DNA of 64,000 nucleotides from Aquila chrysaetos chrysaetos (Eukaryota > Chordata > Aves > Accipitriformes > Accipitridae): assembly GCF_900496995.4 (NCBI RefSeq), contig NC_044029.1, forward strand, positions 1,240,001 through 1,304,000, in the 5' to 3' direction. The notes below the pieces were generated by a model. That model worked only from the letters and a program-made list of their open reading frames with translations, ran no database searches and was not told the origin of the DNA. Positions 15,856-42,960 of this stretch are shown piece after piece. Each line of letters starts with the position of its first letter. The first letter of the stretch is position 1. Position numbers and translations under genes: made by a program.

Positions 15856-15900
15856 TCAGAGCTCCTCATTGAGGGTCTTCTCTTCAGGTTCATCTTCTTT
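15856..15900 (-). CDS. ERP27: ERP27 coding exon 7 (C-terminus, ER retrieval signal)
   Basis: 45 bp including the TGA stop, acceptor TGTTTTAG|AAAGAA. It codes KEDEPEEKTLNEEL. The acidic tail ends in NEEL, a KDEL-like ER-retrieval tetrapeptide (human KVEL). The short acidic tail and position match the last exon of the human gene. Confidence 0.9.
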   Translation of the reverse strand, partial: KEDEPEEKTLNEEL

Positions 15901-18900
15901 CTAAAACACATTAGAGGCATGAAATCAGTTTTGATGTTGCTCAGTTTCTTAGCATAGTGATAAAAGGAAACAAACCAACTTAAACGCCTCCCTCTGCTGT
16001 CTGTGCCACTGCTCTGCCTATCCCATTTCAATTGCACAACACAGGCTCCTGACACACAAAGCCTCTGTGCTATAGGAAGATGAGCTTTGACAAAGAGAGT
16101 ACTCTTAACACTGAATGAACAGGGAGGTTAAATTGTCCCTCTCCCAGCAGAGACCTCTGGTAGAGTCCTGACTGGTATACTAGTCTGTGCACTCTGTTCT
16201 GTGGCCTTCTTGATAGATTTCCTGCCTATCCATGCCACTGTCTCTCTGATCCTCTCCTATGGGCTGCCAGCCACCACCCCCATTCTCAGTGTTCAAAAGC
16301 ACCCTTCACTCTGTCTCCCCAGCTGCTGTTCCCAGAACATAGATGCTTTGCTGAGACCTTCATACAGTTGCAGAGGTCAGTGAAGTCTTCTTGCTGTAGA
16401 CTAGAAGGTAGAGGTCAATGAAGAAACAGGCTCTGCAAAGACATCTATCTCTGCTCTGCTCTAGGTCTAATGCTTTTCTGATATTCAGGTGCAAATGAAA
16501 ATGAAAGAGGAGGTGGCAGGAGTGGGGGGGAGTTCAAGGAACTGAAGTCATTTTCTTCAAGAGCCTTGTGAGCAACAGCATCATCCTACAAGATCCCAGC
16601 TTCCTGTAGACTGTACAGGAGACTCCCTTTACCTTCTGCATTCTTTGTAAGAAACGATTACAGAAGTCCTGTACACGCTCAACAGAGACTTCATCCAGAG
16701 TCAACACATCCTGCTTCTCATCTGGTGTGTTGAATATAGCCAGAGCTGGCAGCTGGGACTTCTTCAGTTTGAAGAATGACACTGTTTGTTCATTGCTCTT
16801 CAAATTGCTGTCTACCAGGATAAAAAGAATCTGCGATGGAAATAGGAAAGGAAACGTGAGCAAAACAGAGACTGAGAGAAAGAACAGATCCCCAGACAGT
16901 GATCATAGGAAGATTAACAGTGATATTTTTATAAAGAGGTAGACTCTCTTAGGACAACAATTTCCTCTGCCACTAACTCCTCATGCAGTGCATTTTTCTG
17001 TATTTTATCAAGTCCAGACTTACACTACCAAACAAAATGTTTTCTTTCACCTTCTTTAACAATATATCTCCAGTATGGCAGGAAGGCAGTCTCCATTTCT
17101 ATTCTCTTAATAGATGAGGAAACAAGATGTCTTTTATCTTAGTGGCACATGTAAAAGAAGCTGACTCCTCTACTTGCATGTTATTTGGATAAGATGCTTA
17201 CATCCATGCAAGACCCAGAGTGGCAGAGTAAAAAGGTGTTTTGCTGTGTGGAAAATCAAACTCAATTGCAAGAATGTGGGAGTGAAGTATAGGGCAGCGG
17301 GAGCCTGCAAGGATAAGAACATGAGAATACCAAACACAAAGGACGTATTTAAGTGAGCTGCAGTGAATAGAAATGAAGATGCAATCATTTCAGAAACAGG
17401 AGTCGTTGGCAAGACACTAATGTCCATATAGCCCAGCTCAGCGGAGGGTTGTTCAGACCTGGGGAGAGAAGCCCAACAATGAATAAGCCGGGATGAGAAT
17501 GACCTACAGTTTTCTGGGCTCCCAAATAGTCTTAAAGAGCAAGATCAAGATATGGATTAGGATTCTGCTGGGATGATTCAATAGTATGGATTTATCAGAA
17601 TTGGTGACCAACTCCATGATTTTATTTTAAGAGTAAAGTTCAACTGAGATCTTACAGGTGCAGTAGGAATTGGTACAAATTTAAAATTTTGGAATCTGAA
17701 AGATTATCAATAAAATATACAGCTATCTCAAAAATCTTTGTTAAATTATCTGTAAATACTAAACACAAACATTACATATAAATTTTATAAGAGAAAGTAA
17801 ATACAGCAACTGAACAATTTAATCAGTGACTGATTAAATGCAATCCCTTGGCAGGTGATATCCAAGACAATGAAACAAACATCCAGCTAACGTGTCATTT
17901 TGTCTTCTCTTTATCCTGTGCAGTCTACTGGGCCTAGCATCTTCAAGGTACCTATAGACATGGATATGACTTAACTTACACAAGGAAAAAAGAGAATTTA
18001 AAAAAGAAAAATAATGCAATGTGAAGATGATGTGCCCAGTTCCCAGGCTGTGACTCATGTTTTTCTTTCTTTTCAATCAGGAACACTCAACTTTTTTCTT
18101 CTCTAAAAATAAACTTGGTAAATCTCAAATTCTTTACTTTATTAAATTTATGTTCTATAAAAAACCAAATACATCTGGAAATTTTCCTAGGCAACAGCCT
18201 ATGGGAAGGAGGGATAGTTAGGTTGGTGTAAGGTTTAACTGCAGTTTATCACTGCAATACAGAAGCAGGAACGACACTTTCAATGGATATGTGATATTTA
18301 CCACTTGCAGTCTCTTCCAAAAGTCAACTGTGCCCCAAGGGCAACAAGCTAGTGAGCACACAGGCTGGGGGGAACTTCTCCTAGAGTGCCAAATTCATCC
18401 TTTCGCAGGATAAAACACGAAGCTAGAGAAGGGTTACAAATCTAAGGGTCAGAGGTCTAAGGACCTGATCTAACAGGCTTTCAGCTGGAGCAGCAATGCT
18501 TATGTTTTAGGGCTCTCCTTCCAACTGGCAAGCTGGAAACAGAGGCTGGTGTTGGAGGGAAGCACTTTCAGAGGGTTGGTACAGGAAATGGTATCACATT
18601 TTCACCAGTTCATTCACCAGCTTTTGTTTTTCTCTGTGAAAAATCCACTAGACAACAACAATTTTTTAATCAAATGTTAAACAAGAAGTTAATAAAAAAA
18701 AAACATTTAGAATACCTAGGTTGTTAAATGCTGTCACTTTCTATACAAAATCTCCTCCACCTTTAAAACAGATGAATAGCATTTTAAAATGGTAATATAA
18801 ATAAATGTTAGTCAACATTCTTCACTTTATCAAGCTTCCAGCCTTTGTTAAAAATCCCAAAACTAAAAAAGCTGTACATAAGAATAAAAAGGTTGGGGTT

Positions 18901-21900: not shown

Positions 21901-24900
21901 TCACTGGTAATCCTGAATAAAATTCAAGTCAAGAATCTTGCATTTATTCACAGACAACCTGCAAGCCACAAAAAGGCAAAATCTACTCAATACTTTACTT
22001 GTTTTGAAGTAAACCTGAGTTAACTTGGTAGTCCTGACAACAGATAATTCCACCTAGGGAAATTAGCCAGCAGAGATTTCCATGGTATTGTGCAGTGGCT
22101 GCTTCTGGTACTGAAACTAATTCATGTCTTTCTACATGACAGAGCAATGGAGACAAACCTAAGTGGGCATACTGCTCTGCTTACTCCTTAGTATCCAGAT
22201 CTAAGACCCAAACAGCGGGATCCTAGCTCTCTCTTATTTCTTTGCAAGAGGGCAATTCAAACCACAATTTACTCCTCCAAGTGCCACTCCTTTGGGAAAA
22301 ACAACTTATTAGACTCTAAGTCCCTTCATCTACATGTCCTGCAGTACCACTCCAGTCAGGTGGAAATAATTAGTCAAATCCCCACATATTTAATCTCTGT
22401 ATTATATTCTTGCAAACTTCTATACTGATTGGGTGGGAAACTTGCCTGTATGAATTAAAAAAAAAATTAGATTTGGCTTGCTGGCAATTCATAAATTATC
22501 TGGACTTCAGTACAACATTTTACCCAATGTTTTGTGAAGTATTCCTCACATTTGCTCAGATCTGGGCATGTCACATGAAGAGAAAACTGCCTGCAGTCAC
22601 ATCAGCAAAGGAGAGTGATGCTAAACAGCAATGCACTGTGTTAGAAGAATTAGCTGCCTGGGGAGAGCCTGGTATCAGACTCTGCTGCTTATGGACAACA
22701 GGGATAATGGTGTCGTTATAGCACACACCTCACATGAGACGGTAGGAATTTTTCAGGTAAATGAGTTCTCTTTTATCACTATGTATTCATCGAAGCAAAA
22801 CACTTTTCGAGAGACCTTTTGACTTTGATGGCTGGTTTATGCCTGGTCTCTTGCCGATGGGTGGGACAGATGGCAAGGTCCAAAGTAGTCCTGCCATAAA
22901 CAAACGTCAGGACTTCTGAGGGTGCACAGTTCTGAGGTGGCCCCTCCATTCGAAGATGAGGATATACTTGATTAATTTAATCTGACCCGTCAGTACCACA
23001 AACAGATGCATGCCGATGTTCATGTTCTTAAACCCCAACTCCTTCCAGCTCCACTCTTCTCCCAGGAAGATCTCTTCCACTGCCTCTCAGCTTAGCCTTC
23101 TCTGCTGCTGTGATCCTCTGCCCCCTCCCATCTGCTGTTCTCCCTTGCCCCAAATGCCTTCCTGTTGCTCCCAATCCTCCTCTGCTTGCCAGTTCCTTCC
23201 TCTGTTCCCTGGACACAAATTCCCCTGTAATCCAGCTGCTGGCAGAGAATCAGCCATTAGAAGATTTACTGTCTGGGGAGCTCTGCCCACAGAGGGGTGG
23301 GAACCAGGCGGAATTTCTCTGAAAGACTCCATCTATCCCATCACGTTAGTGTGGGAAATCCGACAAACCCATTTGCAACTCCTTTAAAATTGCTATTTCC
23401 CCAGGATCCAACCAGAAGGCTAAGGGTTAAGAAGCACCGCAACATTAATTGCTGTCTTATATAATGCTCCTTGGCATCTTGCAGGCTGTACATACAACAT
23501 CACCTCTCACACCAGTGGAATGCAACCATCACCAGACTGAAGTGCAGCAGCTGTTTGTCTTCTCCCAGTGCAAGGGAACAAAACTGGACCAGAGGCAAGG
23601 AAGTACATAATGTCCCACTGAGGGAGTACAGGAGTAGGATACAGAGGATATTTTCCCCACAAAGAGGCAAAATGGCAAAAGGTGAACAGATCCAACCCCT
23701 CCACTTAATTACCCAGCTAATCCTCTTTTTCTGCCACTTGGCTTTTGCTCCCCTAATGCACAGAGAAGGAGATTATGCCCTCCCCATCCACGGAAGCAAT
23801 CACTGTTCTCCCTTTTTTCTCCCTAACGGCTCCCTTTCCTCTCTGTTTGGACTTACCTTCCCCTTGAAGAGCTCCGCTGCCGCCCGATATCTGCGCATTC
23901 GCTCGGGGTGCCTTGGGGACATCTTGTCTGTGATCAGGAGGAGGTGAAGCTGGAGTGAACTCTGCATCACACCTATTGCTGTCTGCAAAACACACACAGA
24001 CAAGGAGATTGAGAACATTCAATCTGCATTGGATGCACTGCCAGAAGGAATCAATCCTCATGTCTCAGCTAAGATTTCTTTGCAAATCAGCTTCGCAAAC
24101 AGGACAGCTTTCTTTAAAGGAGGAGGGATCCAATCTGGGTTCTTTGTGGAAGCGCTTAACCTCCTGGCTTTGCTTATTCCCGAGATGAGGGTCTGAAGAC
24201 CACAAGGGCTCATCCCTGGCCCTCAGGATAGTCAGTGACTAGGCAGGGGAACTGCCTGGATACAGCAAGCTGAAGTCTAGAGGGGCAAGGAAGTGGAGAG
24301 GGAAGTCCAGCAAACACTGAACATCAGGGTGCCCTGAATCACTGAGGTCCAGCACTTGGCTGAAATGGGAGCAAGAAAGCGGGAATGATTTGTGGTGTCA
24401 GGGTTGGTGTCTCCCCTTATTTCCTTTCTTTAGGGTTAAGCTGTGCACAGGATGGGGATGAGTCCAGAGTTTCAGCAACCCCCGGGCCTGGGCATTCCAG
24501 AGTGCTGAGGGTTAAAATTGCAGTCCCACACTGGGAGAAGACCTGGAGCCGGCTGTCCCTCGTCCCCTGGGCAAGGGCCAAGCAGTCAGCACACACTGGC
24601 CCTCTGTGAGGAGACAGGTCTGGCGCTGCCCAAGAAGCCGCTGCACCATCTCCAGGCACTCACTCACTCACTCACTCGTCATCTCGCTTCTCCTTCCACC
24701 CGCTTCCTGCAGCCTCTCCCTCAAACTAAACAGCAGCTGGGCCAGACCTGCTGCCTCCCCTGTACCACCAAAACCACGGAGGCACAGACCATGCAGCTCC
24801 CTGCCAGCCGGAGAAGAAAGTTTCCACACGCTCCAGGAGTAATAAGGAAGGGGTCGGGGAGTGCATGCCAGCAAGGGCCATGCACTGCAAAGCATCTAGT

Positions 24901-27900
24901 TTTTGGCAGCCAGGACTCTGCCATTAGCCTAATGTTTATCAGACATTTTGCATCCCTTTGCTTCTCTGGTGGTGTGCGGATGGGGCAGGGGAGAGTAGAG
25001 GGGATGCAAACCAAGGCTGGAGAGCATTAGAAGACCTCATGGGAGAGGACGGGGCTGAAGGTGAGGGTGAAGCCAGCCAGCACCAAGGGCCATGATAAGG
25101 CTGGGCTGAGAGCAGGCAGGGCTGGAGCAGCAGTTCCTCCAGCAGCTCCACACAAAGGCGTGCCTGTCCACGCAACCTTGTGCAAGAGTGATCCGCAGAG
25201 CTCATCAGCATGGCTGGGTCACATCTGACTCTCCTGGAAAGCCCACAAGGTAATCATTGCCTAAAAATGCCTAAAGTATGTGGGAGAAACAGTAAGGGCC
25301 CCAGGATGGGGAGAGAAACTCTTGGCAGCACTCGGTGTGATCCGCATGACCCCAGCCTCTGCTGACCAGCAGCATAGATGTAAACAGCATATGCGCTGGG
25401 AATAAATATTTATGAAAAACCAAGCTACATTAGTGGAGCTGGGAGGGCTTTGGGCTGGAGACTGCAGGAGGCACTGTTAACTGCAGCACCTTGATAGGAC
25501 TCCAGTGTCTGGAAAAAAACTGGAACAACATGTGTACTGCCAGTCAGGGTGGAGGGGACCTGCTGAACAGCTCAGGACTTCTTGGTCAGGGAGACAGCCT
25601 GGGTGCCGAACAGGAGCGAGAGCCCAAAGGATCAGCAGAAACACATGAAGAAAGAGCCATGATTGCATGAAGAACAAGCCATGACCTAATCAATTGCCAA
25701 AAGATGCAGTGTAGGCTCCAAGAGTTCAGAAGGCCTGGATGATTATAAAGATAACAAGAACATCTCCGGTGATGTGACTTCGGTGATCTCAAACGGCTGT
25801 GAGGACAGTGGGGAAGGATATAGCTTTTCTGTCCCCAGAAATATTCTGTGATTTTGAAATGCATTTTTCACATCCCTTATCAAGTTGAAAAACAAATCCA
25901 CTTTTTTCCTTTTTTTTTTTTTTTTAAACCAAAAAACCAGAACTTATACTATATTTCATTCTGGAAACAAAATGTTACATTTCCAAAACAAAATGCTCTC
26001 TCTACTGGTGGCCTGCACCTGAACTGGGAAATGTGTCAGCCCTCTTAGCTGATACTTGGCATCAGCTTGAAAATGTATAGCTTTGAAACAGGTTGGGTCA
26101 TTCTCCTTTGATTAAATCGAGCCTGGTCAGCACTGTTGTAGCTATCCAGAAGTCCACAAAAGACCCCATCGGCAATGACAAAGTCTCAGCCTTGCGGCCA
26201 TCGGGGCTTTTAAGACCTATTGACTCCACAGCAATAAGCCCAGTGAACTGCTGAGATTTCAGAGCAGCCTAAATCCTTGATCACTCTCTATAGCAGGGAG
26301 GAGCACTGGGACCCTGCCACTGCCAGTCAGAGGGGTGAGCTAATGAAGGTGGCCAACATGGAAGCATCCTATGTATGGGGGGGGGGGGGGGGGGGGGGTG
26401 TTGAACTGATGAATTCTGGAGTAAGGGATAGAGGGGATGGGAAAAATTTTGCTTGGGAGGTTTCCAGACAGCTCTTGAATATGCTTTCAAATAGCCAGGC
26501 TTATGTCAAGCCCTATGTGTTGGGTGATGAAGAAAAGCCTGCCTTCTGGGAGTAGGTCACTCGAGTTTCCATGTTTCTCAAGGCTTCTCAGCCAAAGAGA
26601 GGGGATCCTAGCTGAGCAGGGTCTACAGGCATGGCACAACATGGCAAATGCCCATGGGAGGAGGCAGCACAGCCAGCAGGAGTGGTAAGAAATGGAGCTC
26701 TCTCCCACCAACACCCCAAATTTACTGGAAAGCTAAAGGAATCGCCATGCCTCCCTTACTCCCCCCACCCCACTTGCACGCACCAGCACAGCATCTGCTT
26801 CCAGCCCCCGTATGGATTAGCAGTGAAGAGCTGCGTGGCTTCCCCAACCCCATCCACACTGTTGCTGCAACCCCCGCACACGTCTGGGTATGCCAACTCT
26901 TGGGCCAGAGGATGCCCATGAGCAGGCCAGGTGCCAGGGTGAGGGCTGTGGGGAGCTGATAATTACCACAGGGTTGTACTCTGTCACCAGGCGGAGCTCG
27001 TTCATCCGAATGAAACGAGTCATCTTCTCGGCATCAACATCTTTGCTGTTCATATCCAGATCCCTCCGGTCATTGTCTACCTGAAGACATGCAAAGAAAC
27101 CTACAGTCACAGCTGTCCTCTCCTCTCAGCACCCGTTCCAGGGGCACTGATGGCACTCCCTCACAGAGACACCCATCCCCTGGGACACCACCATCCTCTC
27201 TCCCCCCACCACGTAATCCCCACTTCTGGAGGTCCAGAACCTACAGAGACCAGCCTGCACTTTGCGACAATCATCTTCCACCCTCCTTCAGTCTCCCAGT
27301 GACACAGCACACTCATGGCATAACAGAAATCACTGAGGACTCCAGACATCCCTACGGTATCAGCTCCTGATGCACTGGAGAAAGAGAGGATTAGCTGATA
27401 ATTCTAGGCCTTGTGGGGAGAGATCATTAAATAGCCTAACTCCTCACATCGATTTTGGCTTTATATCCCCTTTTAAAATCTTCATCTGCTTATTCTTTTA
27501 CTTCTACAAGTAATAAACTTTGGCATGGGCTCGTATGGATTTCCTGGAAACGTTGTGCAAGTAGGAAATCTCTCCAATAAAAAGAGGATTATTTTTTTTC
27601 CAGTACAGCAGAAAAAAAAAATAATATTGAGAACAGCACATTTTAGCTTTAGAGGAAAATTCATCCTGCTACACATCTCCCCACACTTCACTGCCCCATG
27701 CAAACAATGTGATTTTATTGAGGTTTTCATGACCTGGTAAACATTAAAAAAAGCAGGCAATCACTGAACGACAGCTAAACCACCTGAAGAGTTGCTGTGC
27801 AGTAGCACCGCAGGACGTGACTGAGTTGAGCCATGGGGACGCTGGGCTCTGACATGCAATAGGTTCAAAGTTTGGGATTTGAAGGCCTTTGATACCCATG

Positions 27901-30900
27901 TTGAATGAGGTTCTTGGGGCTGAGGAAAGGTCCACATGCACGGCCCAGATTTTATTCCCTGCATCTGTACAACCTCTGAAAGTGCTTGTGTTAGTTTTTT
28001 CCAGTGGTGTGCAGACATCTAAAGCCCTTTTTGCTGTTCTGTGGTCATTGGCAAGGTCTTTGATCTGGTAGCGGGGCACAGTGCCCTGTCTGGCAACCCA
28101 AACTGATGCTTTTCAGACTGTGTGGCCCAATTCCTCTCACAGATTTGCTCCTGCATAAAATGAAAGGACAGCTCTACTCAAGTAAATGAGATCAGGCCAG
28201 TGCAACACCGGAGATCAGACAGACCTTGGGAACCAATCTAAAGCACCCTGGACTCCCAAGATAGTGTTCTCCTGGCTTTCATGGGCTTCTGGAAACACCT
28301 GATTTCCATTTTGGGATAATAACATCTTGAATCTGCGTTCAACATTTACGATTTTAAGAAAATAAGGCTGGAAAATAGCCTGCATCTAATAGTTGAAGCT
28401 CTAGTCAAAATGTCTTTATCACTTCATATAATTAGCTTGTTAGCATCTGTTAATTATGTTCTTTTTAGGTCTATCAGGCCAGATTCCTCACTAGAATAAA
28501 TCAGTTTTCCTCCACTATATGCAAAGAAGTCACCAGCTGACAGCAGCCCCTCCTACTACTGTAATTATGGTTTAAACTTCTAAGCATTGAAAGTGTTTCA
28601 TACTCTGCAAAAGCAAAGAAAAAATGAGTTTATGCCTCTGATTCACTGCTATCCTGGTCACGCATCTTCGTATTCTTCAAATGAGTATTTGATTCCAAGT
28701 TCTTGTCTCTTTTCTTTTTTCTTTTCCTTTTTATCTCTGACCCCTTACTCCTACACAGTATTCAGCACAGAATAAAAGGAAAAATAATGTGTCTGAATAA
28801 CTTAAGAAACACTGACAATTAGATGAGCGAATTGACAACCACATTTGAACCTGACTAGCATATTACTTTCTTGGTTGGTTTTTTTTTCCTATTAAACAAG
28901 AGTTCAGCTGCAAAAACTGGACAGTGAACAAAGAATATTCAATACAATCCAAATTCCAACAATCCAGACACTTTCTTTTATCAAATACCCTCTCAATGCA
29001 GTCATCCTTGCTATCTGCAACAGCACAAAAACAAAGGAAAATTTCAGTATTTTTGGAAGAAAACCACCATGACTAAGAACCAAAACTGAGATGGGTGTTG
29101 CTTCAAATTGCAACATGTGCACATAGCAAATAAAAGGTTAAATAAAAGGACCTGCCTACCTATTGCTCACTCTTAGATCATTCTCTTTGAGTTATTTGGA
29201 TTATGCCAGTGGTAAACACCGTGCAGGAAATAATGAGAAAGAAAGGGGAACAAACTGGCTTTGTCCAATCTTTGTACAACCTGGGTCTAGACCTTGGGCA
29301 AGCTGCCACATTTAGTTTCCCTAGTACACGTAGCGTGTCCCTGTGTCCTGTCCACCCCCACTCCCCCATGCGCTTAGAGCTGTGATGACACAACACTTCG
29401 CGGGCTTTTAGGACATCTTGTGCTACCTAGGGCCCCTCTCCTCCTCAGATACACCTCACTCTCCAGTTTTCAAGTGCCACACTTGTGTGAGAAGGGGCAA
29501 CACAAGGCAATGGATATAACTAGAATACTTGCTCTTAGCTTTTGTTGGTACTCTTGAAGCGAGTACACGGCCCTTCGCAGTATTGCCTCCTTAAATTTCA
29601 GCAAACATAGCTTCAAATTCAGTGAGGCACCAGCACTTACAGCTGGAGTCAACAAAGATTTGACTTTGCACAGCATCCATCCCTAAGAAACTGCAAAGTA
29701 ACATTCTTAATGGGCCCATGCCCAAAGTGTATTTAGGGGATAGCTCTGCAAACCACAGTGTAGGAGACAGAAGAGAGCGTTTGGGATTTCTTTTGGTGGC
29801 GGAGCACCCGTAACTGCAGAGACCCAGTCTGGATCTGCTTTTGGTCACGACGGAAAAGTTGTGCACCCAGGGAGATGGCCTTGCCTGCCTGAAGTGACAC
29901 CTGGCAGGATTCGATATCTAGCCTGCTGCATTTATCTGTTGTAACACAGCCTCTAGGTGCTTTTTGTGTGTCTCGGTAGCCTTTCCAAAACCACAGAAAC
30001 CCCATCCAAGTAACACTGAGCTCCAGGCAGGTCACTCAGAGACACAGACACTGTTCTGTGCAAAGCTCTGGGTGCTGGACCAGATCCATAGGGCAAACAC
30101 TTAAAATGGAGAATCTCGTCAGGTGTAATAAATGTTGCACGTCTCAGTGATGGGCAAGTGAAAAGCGAAAGACCTCTTTGGGGCGGGAAGCTCTACAAAC
30201 GTGCTTTTAGGTGGGCAGGCGGAGCGACTCTCACCAACCAGCCTATTTTTCTTTTTTTTTGGCTCGCTCTGAGGTGAAGTGCCCAGCTTTAACCTCCCTC
30301 TCCATCACCACCACCCGGAGATGCCGCTTCTCCTGCCCTTGACCGCAGGCAGTTTTCAGGCCCTTGCCCTAGAGCCTCTCCCACCCAAACCAGCGGGCAG
30401 GCCGACTCCCGAACCCACAGCCTTCCTCTGGCAGATCCAACCTCCCTGCGCGGCAGCCGGTTTCCCCGGGAGGGAGCTGCTCCTCCGGCCACGGTAGCTA
30501 CGGCCCCCCCCCCGCCCCGCCGGGCCCACGCACCCTACGGAAGAGCGTGAGGGTGTCCGCCGCCACGCCGTAGCGGGACAGGACGGCGGGGCTGGTGCTG
30601 AGGCCGAAGGGAACCTCCGCGATCCGGCCGGCCGCCCGCTCAAACTGGGACGCTGCGGGGCTCCGCGGCTCCTGTGGAGAGAGAGGAGGGGGGGGAGGAG
30701 GAGGAGGGGGGGGGAGGAAGGGCGGCTGTGAGGAGCAGCGCGCGCGCACGCACAGGCCCCGCCCGGCCGTGGCGCGAGGGCGACACCTAGCGGCCGCCGC
30801 CGGCCCCGCTCCGCTCCGCGCCCCCCCCCCCCCCCCCCGCCGCGGTTGGGGAGGGGGGAGAGGGACGGGACCGGGACGGGGGGCAGCCGAAAAAACGGGA

Positions 30901-33693
30901 CAGGGCGGCGGGGTGCCGGGGGGAGCGTCTTTTTCTCCCGTTGTCACCTTGCCTGCGGGGCTGGGATGCTGCAGAGATCCCCCCGCAAAAGAAGGCCTAG
31001 AGCTCTCAGAAAGGGGGGGGGAGAAACCCAGAACCTGGATGGAGCACGCCCAAATACACACACACGTGTGTCTGTATAAAATAAATACATAAAAAATACA
31101 GTTTTTAAGGTAACGGTGATTCTAGAGTCAGGGGGTTACAATTGTTGAACACCTTGCATTCGCAGTGCCCTGGTTCCTTTTAAAAAGGTGCCTTGGACAT
31201 ACCCTTTAAAAAGTAGCTAATGCAGACACATGGAAGGACAGAAATGTGCAATTTCTCCGTGACTTGAGGTCCGTTCTCCTTCTTGCAGTGAGAGCATTAG
31301 CTACAGCCTTAGCCCATATTAAAGCCTCCCTTGCTAGTCCCATTCCCGACTTTTCTTTTGAGTGATGTATTTTTGATACTTCTACTTTTTGGATTTAAAT
31401 TCTCGAGACGCAGTCTCTGCTTGGAAATTGGTTTGTTTTTCTTTCTAGTTTCAACCTTCAGCTCAGCTGTTTGCGAGCCCAGAGAGAATGGAAAACAAAA
31501 TTCTTTCTTCATTCAAAAGAAAAACAACTCTTCGTGACCTGTTTTGGAAATGCCAGCGCATCCACATGGCTCTGGAGAGAGTGCTAAAGCCTGGGGTGGG
31601 AATAACCTCACTGAGTTTCGGAGCATTCCTGGGAAAACTGGGGTTTAATCAGGCCAAGCATGACCCTTTCTTGCAGACACGCAGGGTTTCTGGAGCAGCG
31701 TGCTGTTTTTCCATCATGGCATGCTGCTCCCAGCCAGGGAGGCCGCGCTCATTATACGGGGAACTTGCCGAGCCGCGTACCGCAGTGAATTGAAAGGCTG
31801 CAGCGGAGGAATAATTTAGGGCGAACGGAGAACATGGACATTATTTGGATGAATATACTCTCAGGCAGAGGGCCACGACAAGCCCTCATGGCACACATAC
31901 GTCTTTATCTACCGTTTAAGCGCAGCCCTGTCGTGCTTCAGGCACTGAACGCCGGACACGACGCTGGCTGCTGCCTCGTGCTCCTGGCAGCCGGGGCCGC
32001 ATGGCAGCGGCCTCCCGTCTGACTGATGAATGAAATCCTGCAGCGGGAGGGAGGCCGCGGTGGCCCAAGACGGCGGCGGTCATGCCCCCCGCGCCGCTTC
32101 GCCGTAGCCGGTGGGGAGGCTCTGTGCCCCCGGGTACGGCGCGGCCGCAAGCCCAGCCAGCTGCTCTGGGGGAAGGAGGTGTCTCAACACTTTCGTTCTG
32201 CGCGTGCAGATTGCCTCGCTGGTTTGCAGGACTGTAGCTCTGCAAAAGCAACCCTCCGGGAGCTCCGAACGCCTGCAGGCACCAAAGGCGGAGCAGCTGG
32301 TGCTCTGTGATCCGGGCTTAGCGTGGCTCCCGGGGCATCAGCCTCCAGCGCTCACGCAGCTCCTGCTGCCCCACCGTCGGTCCTCGCTCTGCCGTGGGCT
32401 GCGAGATGCCCTTGCCCTATCCCAAGGGCATGAGGACCTCCCTAGGCTGCGCTCCAGCCCCGGGCATCGGGCAGAAAGAGGAAGGAGCTTGCAGAAAGGA
32501 GTTGTTTTTCAAAGGGTGAAGTCTTCTCTGACAGAAGCCACAAGGCAGTGTGTGGGCAGCAGAAGCCCAGGGGAGAGCTCAAAGAAGAGGGGGAAAAAGG
32601 TGTAACTTGGGGGCCTTAAAAGTAATGAGGATCCTGTCAAAGAGCCCTCTGTTTTATGGTGCTCCTGCTCAATAAATATTTTTATCTTGTTTCCTAAGGA
32701 AAAATATTCATGCCATTTTGGGGGCAAGGGGCGCATACCCATCACTCACCTTTGAATTCAATTGAATTTAGACACAGAGAGGCAGAGATCTCAAGGGCAT
32801 CAACTCTGGGGAACAAAGCAGCGAGACAGAGAGACCATGCCTACACCCTCCCTGGGAGGAGGCTGCAGCTTGAGCCCAAACCCCCTTGGACTTCAGAGGA
32901 CCGACACCAGCACTGCTCCCTGAGACACGGCTTCCTCGGCCCCGTCACGCAGGCAGTGCCTTGCTCTGTCTTTGCTGCCTAAAGCAAACAACTGACGTTC
33001 CCACTCATCCCTCACCAACGCTGTTTCTCTGCCACCCACATTCCTGTTTTGCTTCCCCTGCAGCATTTCCCTTTCTCCTGCTCCAGGGCTCCTACAACCT
33101 CCCTCCATCTCCCTTTCCGCACACGGACCAAATTCCCCGTGTTCTCTCTGTGGCCTGTCACAGCCCCTGCACCTCTGGGGACAGGAGCTGCCTTTGGGAA
33201 GTGCTTACACCACTTCCAGCCCCACGCTCTCGTCAGGGTGGGATAGGGCTCACAGCTGGCGGAGGGGAGGTTCTGCCAACACACCTGGAAGAATCCAACG
33301 ACCGCCACCTCTGCACCGCTGATGAAGGCTTCGGCGTCCACGATGCTGTTCAACAGGATAGGTTTCTCTGCGGTGCCGGCTGCGCCTGGAGAGGAGAGGT
33401 CAGGGTCGGACAGAGGGTGCACAAAGCGCAGCCCAAAGAGGCTCCCCCCGACACGCACGCAAGCATCCCACCCCTTACGAGCTCACCCACACATGCCTCC
33501 TGCAAGCTCGACACAACGCTTGTGCAGCACACCCTGGCTCAGGAGGACTCCCCGCGGCAGACCCAGCCTTCCCCCGAGCCAGGAGGAAAGCTCACTCACC
33601 GTGGGGCGCGGGGCTGCCGTCTCCAGCACAACCTGCTGGGGACCCCCCGGCCAGCAGGATGGCGAAGAGGCACGGGAGGACGGAGGCGCCCAT
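15856..33693 (-). CDS. ERP27: ERP27, endoplasmic reticulum protein 27 (whole coding span, 7 exons)
   Basis: Joined exons (minus strand): 33693-33600, 33385-33285, 30671-30534, 27080-26967, 23982-23857, 16830-16633, 15900-15856. All introns are GT-AG and the frame stays open for 816 bp, 271 aa plus stop (human is 273). ERp27 is a two-domain member of the protein disulfide isomerase family with b and b' thioredoxin folds but no CxxC active site; none is seen here either. It sits in the ER lumen, binds unfolded chains and, in humans, recruits ERp57 (PDIA3). Visible landmarks: hydrophobic signal peptide at about 1-23, b domain about 40-148 (EVAVVGFFQ, VTEYNPV), b' domain about 150-255 (ILFILVDS, FFKLKKSQLPALAIF), C-terminal NEEL as ER-retrieval signal. 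The residues matching the human ERp57-binding motif are changed (see findings). The start ATG has a strong context (TACCATGG). The gene lies head-to-tail behind ARHGDIB. Confidence 0.96.
15901..16632 (-). other. ERP27: ERP27 intron between coding exons 6 and 7
   Basis: 732 bp with no other recognisable feature. Confidence 0.85.
16633..16830 (-). CDS. ERP27: ERP27 coding exon 6
   Basis: 198 bp, phase 0 to phase 0, acceptor CCATCGCAG|ATTCTT, donor CAGAAG|GTAAAG. It codes residues 192-257, most of the b' domain: ILFILVDSNLKSNEQ, FFKLKKSQLPALAIF and the helix SVERVQDFCNRF. Residues 229-232 read EKQD where the human protein has DEWD, the ERp57-binding motif. Confidence 0.95.
20959..21275 (-). pseudogene. 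Protein-like disrupted reading frame, parent not recognised
   Basis: On the minus strand a frame runs from about 21275 to a TGA at 20959, broken by a TAG at about 21208. Its residues are rich in Lys, Asp, Glu, Gln and Arg (for example KMLERKVQMLDDAKPARA, ADFEKQL, LRALQLQDRIHQP), a coding-like make-up very unlike the Ser/Cys/Pro-rich chance frames around it. It has no ATG in suitable context and no clear splice sites, and it lies inside the large ERP27 intron. I infer a decayed gene copy or retropseudogene but cannot name the source. Confidence 0.35.
21413..21472 (+). mobile_element. CR1 LINE, 3' terminal fragment
   Basis: The stretch GATCTTAAGGGTCTCTTCC followed by AACCTCAATGATTCTATGAT is the conserved 3' end of avian CR1 retrotransposons, finishing in the ATTCTATG-type terminal repeats. 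The plus-strand copy is severely 5'-truncated; how far it extends upstream of 21400 cannot be judged by eye. Confidence 0.8.
23857..23982 (-). CDS. ERP27: ERP27 coding exon 5
   Basis: 126 bp, phase 0 to phase 0, acceptor TTTTGCAG|ACAGCA, donor AAG|GTAAGT. It codes residues 150-191, including the strand QLHLLLITDK and the helix with RRYRAAAELFKGK, matching the start of the human b' domain. Confidence 0.95.
24657..24677. repeat. (CACT)n microsatellite
   Basis: Five tandem CACT units plus one base, within an ERP27 intron. Confidence 0.85.
26377..26398. repeat. Poly(G) tract, 22 bp
   Basis: An uninterrupted run of 22 G within an ERP27 intron. Length is likely polymorphic and prone to sequencing error. 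Confidence 0.9.
26967..27080 (-). CDS. ERP27: ERP27 coding exon 4
   Basis: 114 bp, phase 0 to phase 0, acceptor CATGTCTTCAG|GTAGAC, donor CCTGTG|GTAATT. It codes residues 112-149 with VDNDRRDLD, MTRFIRMNEL and LVTEYNPV, the end of the b domain and the linker to b'. Confidence 0.95.
27081..30533 (-). other. ERP27: ERP27 intron between coding exons 3 and 4
   Basis: About 3.5 kb. AT-rich for most of its length, it turns sharply GC-rich from about 30290 towards exon 3. No other gene or repeat was recognised. Confidence 0.85.
30534..30671 (-). CDS. ERP27: ERP27 coding exon 3
   Basis: 138 bp, phase 0 to phase 0, acceptor CTCTCCACAG|GAGCCG, donor CGTAGG|GTGCGT. It codes residues 66-111, including EVPFGLSTSPAVLSRYGV and TLTLFRR, matching the b-domain segment around human ISTDSEVLTHYNI. 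The exon is extremely GC-rich and lies in a CpG island with long G and C runs, unlike the other ERP27 exons. Confidence 0.92.
30672..33284 (-). other. ERP27: ERP27 intron between coding exons 2 and 3
   Basis: About 2.6 kb. It begins in the CpG island, passes through an AT-rich stretch, and has a second short GC/CpG-rich block at about 31930-32160. No coding sequence is supported. Confidence 0.8.
30822..30838. repeat. Poly(C) tract in the CpG island
   Basis: An uninterrupted C run of about 17 bp, G-rich on the ERP27 sense strand and able to form G-quadruplex or i-motif structures in principle. Confidence 0.8.
33285..33385 (-). CDS. ERP27: ERP27 coding exon 2
   Basis: Acceptor CTCTCCAG|GCGCAG, donor CAG|GTGTGT, 101 bp, entering in phase 1 and leaving in phase 0. 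It codes residues 32-65, including EVAVVGFFQ, the second beta strand of the b domain, nearly identical to the human EVAVIGFFQ as I remember it. Confidence 0.93.
33600..33693 (-). CDS. ERP27: ERP27 coding exon 1 (signal peptide)
   Basis: Codes residues 1-31 plus one base of Gly32. It opens MGASVLPCLFAILLAG, a hydrophobic secretion signal with a small-residue region (AGCAG) suited to signal-peptidase cleavage. The donor is CACG|GTGAGT, phase 1. The exon sits in a GC-rich promoter region, and ATG at 33693 is the only start that puts the hydrophobic core at the N-terminus. Confidence 0.93.
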
Positions 33694-34823: not shown

Positions 34824-39241
<4,418 letters not shown>

Positions 39242-39803: not shown

Positions 39804-42423
39804 CAGCAAATTAATTGAAGCCCTCAAGGAAACGCACCCGCTACAGTCTATCTGCTGGCGTTCCCGGTGCTTGCTCCCCAGAACAGCTCACTTCGCGCAC
39901 CCATCAGGTCTCCTTCCCGCTGAGGAAGGACGCGCGACGGTGATGGTGACCGCATCCAGCCTGGCTGCGGAGCAGCCCCGCGTACCTGCGCTGCATCGGT
40001 GGGGCTTCTCGGAAAGGAGAGGCAGGACGGCTGGAACCCGCAGCCAGCACGGCCGGTACACGCGCCGCTGAACGCAGGAGAAGCTCCTTGGGTGGCATCC
40101 CAAATGGGAGCCAGAGCGGGGAGAGATCAGCTGATGGGCAGCCAGGCAGAGGGCAGGGAATGGGGAACAGGAGACAAAGGCAGGAGAGGTGAGCAGAGCT
40201 GTGCCAGGTCCCCCTTAGTCAGCTGCCTGCCTCACGGAGCCAGCCGCATGGTCCTAGCCACCTTCCCACTCTTCAGAGAACAGCTGACAAACGGAGCAGT
40301 GCCCTGGTGCCGTGATGGGTGTCGTCAACGGCCAAGCCATCTTGCCGTTTGGCAGCGAGGAGATTTGGTCAAGCTACACAGATCATTCAGTTCACTTCAG
40401 CTTATCCTTACATTAGCTCCTTCTCAGAGGCTGTCCCTGCTGAAAATTCCCCTTTTGCCTGCTTATTTGCAATTTCCCCAGCAAGCCCTTTAACCCTCTC
40501 TGCAGCTGTGGCCTTAACATTTGCCCCTGCTCCCAAAAGTTAAATTGGGAGCTACCAGGATAGTTTTCTCATTCATTAAAACAGAAAGGAAATTAAAAAA
40601 AAAAAAAAAGTATACGCAACAGTTCAGGGTGAATCAGCAAGTGTCATCAGGCAGCGATGTGTAATACGCAGACCTCCCGGTGCAATCCCAGCACGGGTGA
40701 GACCCATGGAAAAAATTCAAGGAGGGGTATATTGGCGTGGTACAGAGGGACAGAGAAGGACGGAGCAGCACAGGAACAAGACGACTCAGTCGGGCACGGT
40801 AATGGACAACGGCTCTGATGCAAGACTACTTTGCAATGGCATTTTGTGGTGAGTCAGGAACTAGCGCAGAGCGGGCAGCTGGGAAATAAAAGGCAATCCC
40901 AACTCACATGAACGGGAAAGGAAGCATGTCCCAGCAGCTGAATAACCTTGGCTGAGTTCACGTTCAGCCCTAGGAGTGCTAAGGACTTACGCACCTTGGG
41001 AAAGGCCCTTGAGCTTGTCCTCATGAGGAAGGAAACCAGAAGCTCCCTCATGAAATCAACGATTGCTCAGGCCCCACTGCTCTGCAGCCCCGGCACGGTC
41101 ACCTTACAAAGCCTCGCGATCCCCTCAGTGCCACCCCGCGCTCGGCGCAGGAAGAGGACGTGATGAGCCCTGGCAGCCACCGCCAGGTCTTGCCTTCCAC
41201 TTGGGCTCCAGCTGCGGATCTGAGTCATTTCCACTCTCCCAAAATCTCTCGTGATACTAGGTTGCATCTGCCACAGCTACAACCACAGAGCAGAGCTGCC
41301 TGCCTGCCCCCATCCTCCACGGGGTTTTTGTGGTTTATCACAGGAGAGGGAGAGACCCAGGCGATGGAGAGAGACATCTCTGGCCACATGTGGAGAAAAG
41401 GCAGAGAGTCAGGGCTGGACCAGCAGGTTGTTTCCCATCCCTCAGACCTTCCCTTTGCATCACGCATGCCGCAGAGGCTTTCCCTGCCAGCCTGTGGGGG
41501 TGGCTCGCTTGAGGGAGGATGCTTTTAGGCTCTGAAAACCTCCCACAGAGGTGGACAGGCAGCCTGCAGTGCCAACAGCAAGAGCCTGAGGGGAACGGGA
41601 CCAGCCAGGCTGCCTGGGCTGAACACCCCCCGGCTCACACGTGTCTCAGGACCGCACCGATCAGACCCTGTCCTGGCATTTCTCCCCAGGTTGTGGACCT
41701 GACCCTGCCTTCCCGTCAAATTCCCAGGCAGCAGGTGACCAAGAGGAAAGCTCCCATCTCAGCCGCCCCTGCCTCTGCTCGCTCCAGCTCTGCGACTGGT
41801 CCCTTCTGCAACCTTAGACGTGCTACTGGGCTCGGGCACCAGCACTTCCCCGGAGCGAGCATGTTGGTGCCCAACTCTCGGGGTCCCTGGGCTCCTGTGT
41901 CACTGCCCAGGCCAGGGGCTGGGCTAAGACGGAGACCCCCTACGGCCTTCAGGCTTCGAGCCTCATTAAAAATGAGAAAATTAACCTATAAATGCTCTAT
42001 ACAAGGAGAAATCTGGGTGATACCCCGCCACGTTTTTCCTGTTTCCTGCAGCCCCAACCCGCCGCTGTGCATCACCTGCACCCCTGCGGCCTGGCAGCAC
42101 CCACAAAGCAGCAGAGAGAGGGGCAGGGGCAGCGCTCGGGACCCCCTGCCAGAGAGAGACCTGGCTGCGGGAGGCGGAGGAGGAATCGTGCCCCGCTCAG
42201 GGGTGCGAGCGGCTCTGCCTGTGCCGGGGGTGGGTGGCTGCCCTCGCACCTGCAGCAGGAGGGGAAGGGGGGGGCAGCAGTCAGGCTGGATGGTGGGCAC
42301 CTCCTCGACCCCCCCCCCCCCCCATGCCACCACAGGGCACAAATTGGGGTGTCACAGGAGCAGCGTTTTATTTGCCCTCGCTCTGTGCATCACTCCTCCA
42401 AAGCACACACACACGCACGCACC

Positions 42424-42444
42424 ACCCCCCCCCCCCCCCCCCCC
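42424..42444. repeat. Poly(C) tract preceded by a short CA/CG-rich run
   Basis: A run of roughly 20 C follows ACACACACACGCACGCACCA. It is part of the set of C runs in the ARHGDIB upstream island. Confidence 0.8.
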
Positions 42445-42897
42445 GCCTCCCCGATCGAGGGCTTATCTCCAGGAAGCGGGTTTGGCAGGGAGGAAGCGAT
42501 TTTCCTCCGGGGTGGGAGTAACCCCCCCCCCCCCACCAGCACCCCTGGCCCCGACCTCCCCATCCCACCCCCCTGGGGTGCGAAGGCAAAAAGCGACCCT
42601 TACCGCCCAGACACCCCGGGGGACCGCCGGGTCTCCCCCCCCCCGGCCCCGGGGCCGCCCCCTCCCCTCCCTCCCTCCCTCCCCCCCCCCATCCCAGCGC
42701 GGAGCCCGACTCCCCCCGGGCTGCGGGCAGGGCCCTGCCCGTCTCTCCGGGCAAGGCTGGACAACGGGAACAAAGGCGCAAAGTTGCGCGGCGTCAGGGG
42801 AGAAGGAGCCGGGGGGGGGGGGGGGGGGGAGAGCCCGTTCCTCTGGCCCCCCCTCCATCCCCGGCAGGCTCCCCCCGCATCCTCCCCTCGTACTCAC

Positions 42898-42960
42898 CGG
42901 CTGAGCGGTCCGGGGTCCTCCGCGCTGAGCGCTCAGCTTTGAGCTTTGGCAGTTGGAGCA
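42898..42960 (-). other. ARHGDIB: Candidate ARHGDIB non-coding leader exon, distal (CpG island)
   Basis: A consensus donor CAGCCG|GTGAGTACG ends an exon at 42898 on the minus strand inside a CpG island. The sequence before it (AGCTCAAAGCTGAGCGCTCAG) has no ATG. Its upstream edge is not defined; a 51-bp poly(T) stretch (sense strand) lies just beyond. It could be the main first exon, an alternative to the proximal leader, or unused. Confidence 0.45.

Follow-up and report, generated by a model that had tools for sequence, protein, structure and literature searches.

The window, that is, the whole stretch of 64,000 nucleotides of Aquila chrysaetos DNA analysed here, is free of N and carries on its minus strand a gene whose seven coding exons, located by tblastn with human ERp27 and by reading of the splice sites, join into one open frame of 271 amino acids with GT-AG borders at all six introns. 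To judge by its sequence, this gene is an intact orthologue of ERP27 (PDIA8), encoding two thioredoxin-like domains (b-b') without a CXXC motif. Beside it, likewise on the minus strand, lies a Rho_GDI gene, and the two are represented by the following features:

33600..33693, minus strand: ERP27 coding exon 1 (ATG within ACCATGG, hydrophobic N-terminus, GT donor)
33285..33385, minus strand: ERP27 exon 2 (tblastn with human ERp27)
30534..30671, minus strand: ERP27 exon 3, b domain (tblastn)
26967..27080, minus strand: ERP27 exon 4 (tblastn)
23857..23982, minus strand: ERP27 exon 5, part of b' (tblastn)
16633..16830, minus strand: ERP27 exon 6, remainder of b' including EKQD (tblastn and PDB 4f9z alignment)
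15856..15900, minus strand: ERP27 exon 7, tail KEDEPEEKTLNEEL and stop (found by reading the sequence; AG acceptor, phase and a tail that fits the human one)
34836..35027, minus strand: C-terminal part of the Rho_GDI domain of the putative ARHGDIB neighbour (profile positions 130-193, E 1.1e-25)

Exon 1 was selected on ATG context, frame and splice site, and exon 7 on frame, splice site and fit to human, each without a strong match to the human protein. Among the exons found by tblastn, exon 3 (G+C 0.75) gives the piece with the lowest identity to human (33%). The N-terminus encoded by exon 1 is likely to be a signal sequence, and the mature chain was assumed to start at residue 22. Cysteines are found only at 8, 22 and 248. 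The strongly acidic tail ends in NEEL, a KDEL-like C-terminus that would be expected to act in ER retrieval and that replaces KVEL, the end described for ER retrieval of human ERp27 (PMC3500226).

The best PDB match of the predicted protein is human ERp27 (4f9z, E 1.4e-65, phmmer), the Pfam domain Thioredoxin_6 spans residues 64-249, and identity to human amounts to 126 of 273 residues overall and 70 of 113 in b'. The coordinates of the Rho_GDI C-terminal part were derived from residues 102-165 of the minus-strand frame at 34827-35330; an N-terminal part lies at about 39071-39211, also on the minus strand, the whole gene spanning 34836-39211. This neighbour is presumably ARHGDIB, the B paralogue being assigned from its place. 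In almost all tetrapods PDIA8 and RhoGDI beta are described as neighbours (PMC5722932), and the arrangement in the window matches this. On the plus strand, the window's longest open frame (41513-42901, 463 codons) has no Pfam match and is perhaps a chance frame.

A brain expression study of the red junglefowl tabulates ERP27 (PMC5108935), so that at least one bird expresses the gene. For the habu snake, a table lists two gene models called ERp27 that differ in expression (PMC9146206), and ERP27 may be duplicated in some reptiles; according to the text of the same paper, an ERP27 tree is given in its supplement. When prokaryotic and viral contigs were scanned with the exon 6 peptide, none of the pattern matches (145 and 21, respectively) encoded a relative.

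Within exon 6 lie the loop and the four codons with which we are mainly concerned:

16690..16731, minus strand: loop between PALAIF and VSVERVQ, NTPDEKQDVLTLDE (residues 225-238 here, 226-239 in human)
16708..16719, minus strand: E-K-Q-D codons, residues 229-232, opposite human D230-E231-W232-D233 (translation and spliced gene)

We take human DEWD at 230-233 to be the motif through which ERp27 docks on ERp57, and the loop between PALAIF and VSVERVQ is presumably the turn between strands 4 and 5 of b'. The E231K change in human ERp27 is said to weaken ERp57 binding; among the literature matches listed, there was no ERp27 paper with DEWD, E231K, Glu231 or Trp232. The original prediction had E-K-Q-D at residues 229-232 between the two conserved flanks, DEWD at human 230-233, a lysine opposite Glu231 and no tryptophan, and on all of these points it is borne out. 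Translation and spliced gene put E-K-Q-D in one frame with PALAIF (16732-16749) and VSVERVQ (16669-16689), and the letters at 16708-16719 are ATCCTGCTTCTC on the plus strand and GAGAAGCAGGAT on the minus strand. The string GAGAAGCAAGAC, which had also been used for the E-K-Q-D codons, is wrong, since the minus strand has GAGAAGCAGGAT, so that 374 genome matches to GAGAAGCAAGAC are uninformative.

The human motif begins at 230 and, from human to A. chrysaetos, D230 becomes E, E231 becomes K and W232 becomes Q, while D233 is kept. The only gaps in the comparison with human ERp27 fall opposite human 13, 120 and 255, and the N-terminal part holds a single additional residue, so that this pairing is unambiguous, and the PDB 4f9z alignments give the same placement; with no gap near human DEWD, we reject a misalignment that would have hidden the motif elsewhere. 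The human sequence used for comparison is the same as that of 4f9z at every position from 30 to 256. From residue 22 on, the A. chrysaetos protein has no tryptophan at all, the other human one, at 42, being replaced by leucine. The sequence comes from one assembly only, and the changes could in principle stem from a sequencing error, from a decayed gene or from a single individual; we hold this to be very improbable, as the open frame, the canonical splice sites and the conserved flanks, in a window without N, argue against it and lead us to reject the pseudogene reading, and the replacement of tryptophan (TGG only) by CAG needs two base changes besides the change from E to K.

The loop is the part of b' in which the two proteins differ most. 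The two lowest-identity windows among the 101 windows of thirteen residues in b' start at 225 and 226, and thus fall on the loop, each with 4 of 13 residues identical to human. Compared with the remaining b' (66 of 100 identical), the 4 of 13 of the loop give a Fisher p of 0.03, which is weak because the loop had been picked beforehand by the earlier finding. The exchange of DEWD for EKQD is not exceptional by itself, since 22 of the 108 four-residue stretches of b' are changed at three or more of their four places. When either ERp27 is compared with human P4HB or PDILT, the loop is identical at 0-2 of 14 positions and the sequence elsewhere at 27-35 of 97-99 (four pairs). The docking loop seems loosely held across these comparisons of ERp27, P4HB and PDILT, although P4HB and PDILT are no less alike in the loop (4 of 14) than elsewhere (29 of 97), a poor fit to a rule that the loop always varies.

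Human P4HB and PDILT have neither a tryptophan nor DEWD at the loop, and this would also agree with a history in which nothing has been lost, DEWD being a mammalian gain and the loop of A. chrysaetos (or another) being nearer to the old state. The same is suggested by human PDI 4ju5, which scores 135.4 bits against A. chrysaetos ERp27 and 119.5 bits against human ERp27, and by the differences in b', where P4HB agrees seven times with A. chrysaetos (including D230E), five times with human and 32 times with neither; however, seven against five is no real difference. The P4HB residue opposite 231 depends on the alignment, being Glu in one and Thr in the other, and with Glu at this place the lysine would be the new state. 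We regard a mammalian gain as a serious possibility, if somewhat short of an even chance, and it is compatible with the explanation that we favour below. It also bears on the claim that the docking motif is lost in A. chrysaetos. E231 and W232 are indeed absent and a lysine occupies 231, in a b' domain whose core is well kept; what is not supported is the word 'lost', P4HB and PDILT being likewise without DEWD.

A finding that goes beyond the original prediction is that the whole A. chrysaetos ERp27 is much less acidic than the human protein, through arginine. The mature protein has a net charge of -4 (pI 5.59), versus -19 (pI 4.60) in human, with 19 arginines versus 4, 14 lysines versus 15 and 37 Asp plus Glu versus 38. 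Since the number of acids is nearly equal, the lower acidity is due to the gain of arginine, and we reject a loss of acids as the cause of the shift. Over the whole precursor, 23 of the 41 human acids are not acid in A. chrysaetos and 19 acids are present only in A. chrysaetos. Charge is reversed at ten sites, eight of them from acid to base (39, 68, 125, 137, 174, 216, 231 and 260) and two the other way. The net charge of b' is -5 in human and either +3 or +2 in A. chrysaetos, depending on the borders (human 141-253 or 143-253). All these counts are relative to human and come from one A. chrysaetos genome, so that they do not give the direction of change between lineages. The arginine gain may come partly from base composition (G+C is 0.74 in exon 1 and 0.75 in exon 3), although it is only 0.42 in exon 6, which bears the motif.

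The acids are also distributed differently. If an acidic run is defined by simple count as a net three or more acids per six residues, such runs occupy 117-128, 172-179 and 226-235 in human ERp27; in A. chrysaetos ERp27 they occupy 237-242, which follows closely on the loop, and 258-265, in the tail. The first of the latter, the short run DEVSVE, results from the gain of an Asp at 238 (human numbering), and the tail contains a new run, EDEPEE. The loop itself (residues 225-238) keeps Asp229 and Asp233 (human numbering), and its net charge is -3, versus -4 in human, so that we reject the reading in which the loop has no acids left. E231K and W232Q most likely reflect weak constraint on an exposed loop, together with a general drift of charge, rather than a single targeted switch.

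The acidic b' loop of human ERp27 is described as docking on a basic patch of ERp57, thus bringing the enzyme to the client, and the ERp57 residues that meet ERp27 are basic (PMC7763558). The contact is characterized as electrostatic, with three basic residues (PMC7763558; for calnexin, PMC8151781). One domain of ERp57 serves both ERp27 and calnexin/calreticulin, according to PMC7079004, and the change of calnexin Asp347 to Lys is described as abolishing ERp57 binding (PMC7687155). By analogy with calnexin, one would expect poorer docking on ERp57 from a basic b' domain that carries a lysine at 231. The A. chrysaetos protein would most likely hold unfolded protein in the b' pocket, as in mammals, and as Glu231 and Trp232 are replaced by Lys and Gln and many arginines are added, docking via the loop would probably be weak or absent. 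Given a basic ERp57 site and a less acidic ERp27, we consider it likeliest that docking is weaker or has been relocated, and on balance we lean towards an intact ERP27 orthologue whose docking on ERp57 through the loop is probably weak or absent. Against weak docking it can be said that the loop is still net negative, with two aspartates kept and one gained, that the total of acids hardly differs, and that the tail, through EDEPEE, could serve for docking instead. Conservation of Lys214, Lys274 and Arg282 in PDIA3 would say little, because calnexin and calreticulin need the same residues.

Those remaining acids could mean that ERp57 binding has been kept, through Asp228, Glu229, Asp232, Asp237 and Glu238 of the loop or through the acidic tail, with E231 and W232 being dispensable in this lineage. 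A loop charge so near to the human value, the acidic runs at 237-242 and 258-265 and an electrostatic ERp57 contact that, as described, involves three basic residues would all accommodate such docking. We consider it rather unlikely, however, as the lysine sits at the position reportedly decisive, the net charge of b' is positive and in calnexin one change of Asp to Lys is described as enough to abolish binding. Going further than weak or absent docking through the loop, the explanation that we favour, it is conceivable, though speculative and in our opinion improbable, that in the A. chrysaetos lineage (perhaps in all birds or sauropsids) ERp27 has become uncoupled from ERp57, passing from strongly acidic to nearly neutral by means of arginines and acquiring a basic b', and that it would act as a stand-alone holder, with another, acidic partner, or by docking on ERp57 with its tail. 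The literature matches listed included no paper comparing the docking motif of ERp27 across vertebrates.

The hydrophobic client pocket of PDI is described as consisting of F240, F249 and F304 (PMC7763558), opposite which human ERp27 has Y147, F156 and F211, and A. chrysaetos ERp27 Tyr, Met and Phe. The original prediction held that substrate binding is kept, a claim that is plausible with mixed evidence, as two of the three pocket positions are as in human and F156 is replaced by Met. From this comparison, client binding by A. chrysaetos ERp27 appears likely.

If docking on ERp57 were absent across a vertebrate class that has retained the gene, ERp27 would have to have a function independent of ERp57, which would help to clarify the purpose of the protein. 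A natural reversal of charge at the docking residue provides a ready-made test. If, on the other hand, the loop merely drifts, DEWD would be unfit as a mark of ERp27 outside mammals.

Human ERp27 (PDIA8; PDB 4f9z, 2l4c) shares with the A. chrysaetos protein the b-b' architecture, the lack of CXXC, a b' domain identical at 70 of 113 residues and a Rho_GDI neighbour. The A. chrysaetos protein differs from it by E231K and W232Q in the loop, by the lack of tryptophan, by a far lower acidity due to arginine, by NEEL in place of KVEL and by its acidic tail. Where the human docking motif is D-E-W-D, A. chrysaetos has E-K-Q-D; its membership by descent stands. The next-best PDB matches, at 132.6-135.4 bits for full b-b' chains, are to the b-b' part of human PDI (P4HB), a protein with catalytic a and a' domains. 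The pocket position F304 of P4HB is kept in A. chrysaetos ERp27, and the P4HB loop is one residue longer and identical at 1 of 14 positions. The P-domain of calnexin and calreticulin has a fold unrelated to that of ERp27. Its tip resembles the human ERp27 loop in that both are acidic and, as described in PMC7763558 and PMC7079004, contact one and the same basic surface of the b' domain of ERp57; it differs from ERp27 in that a conserved Met-Asp-Gly tip is described as the part that docks (PMC7687155).
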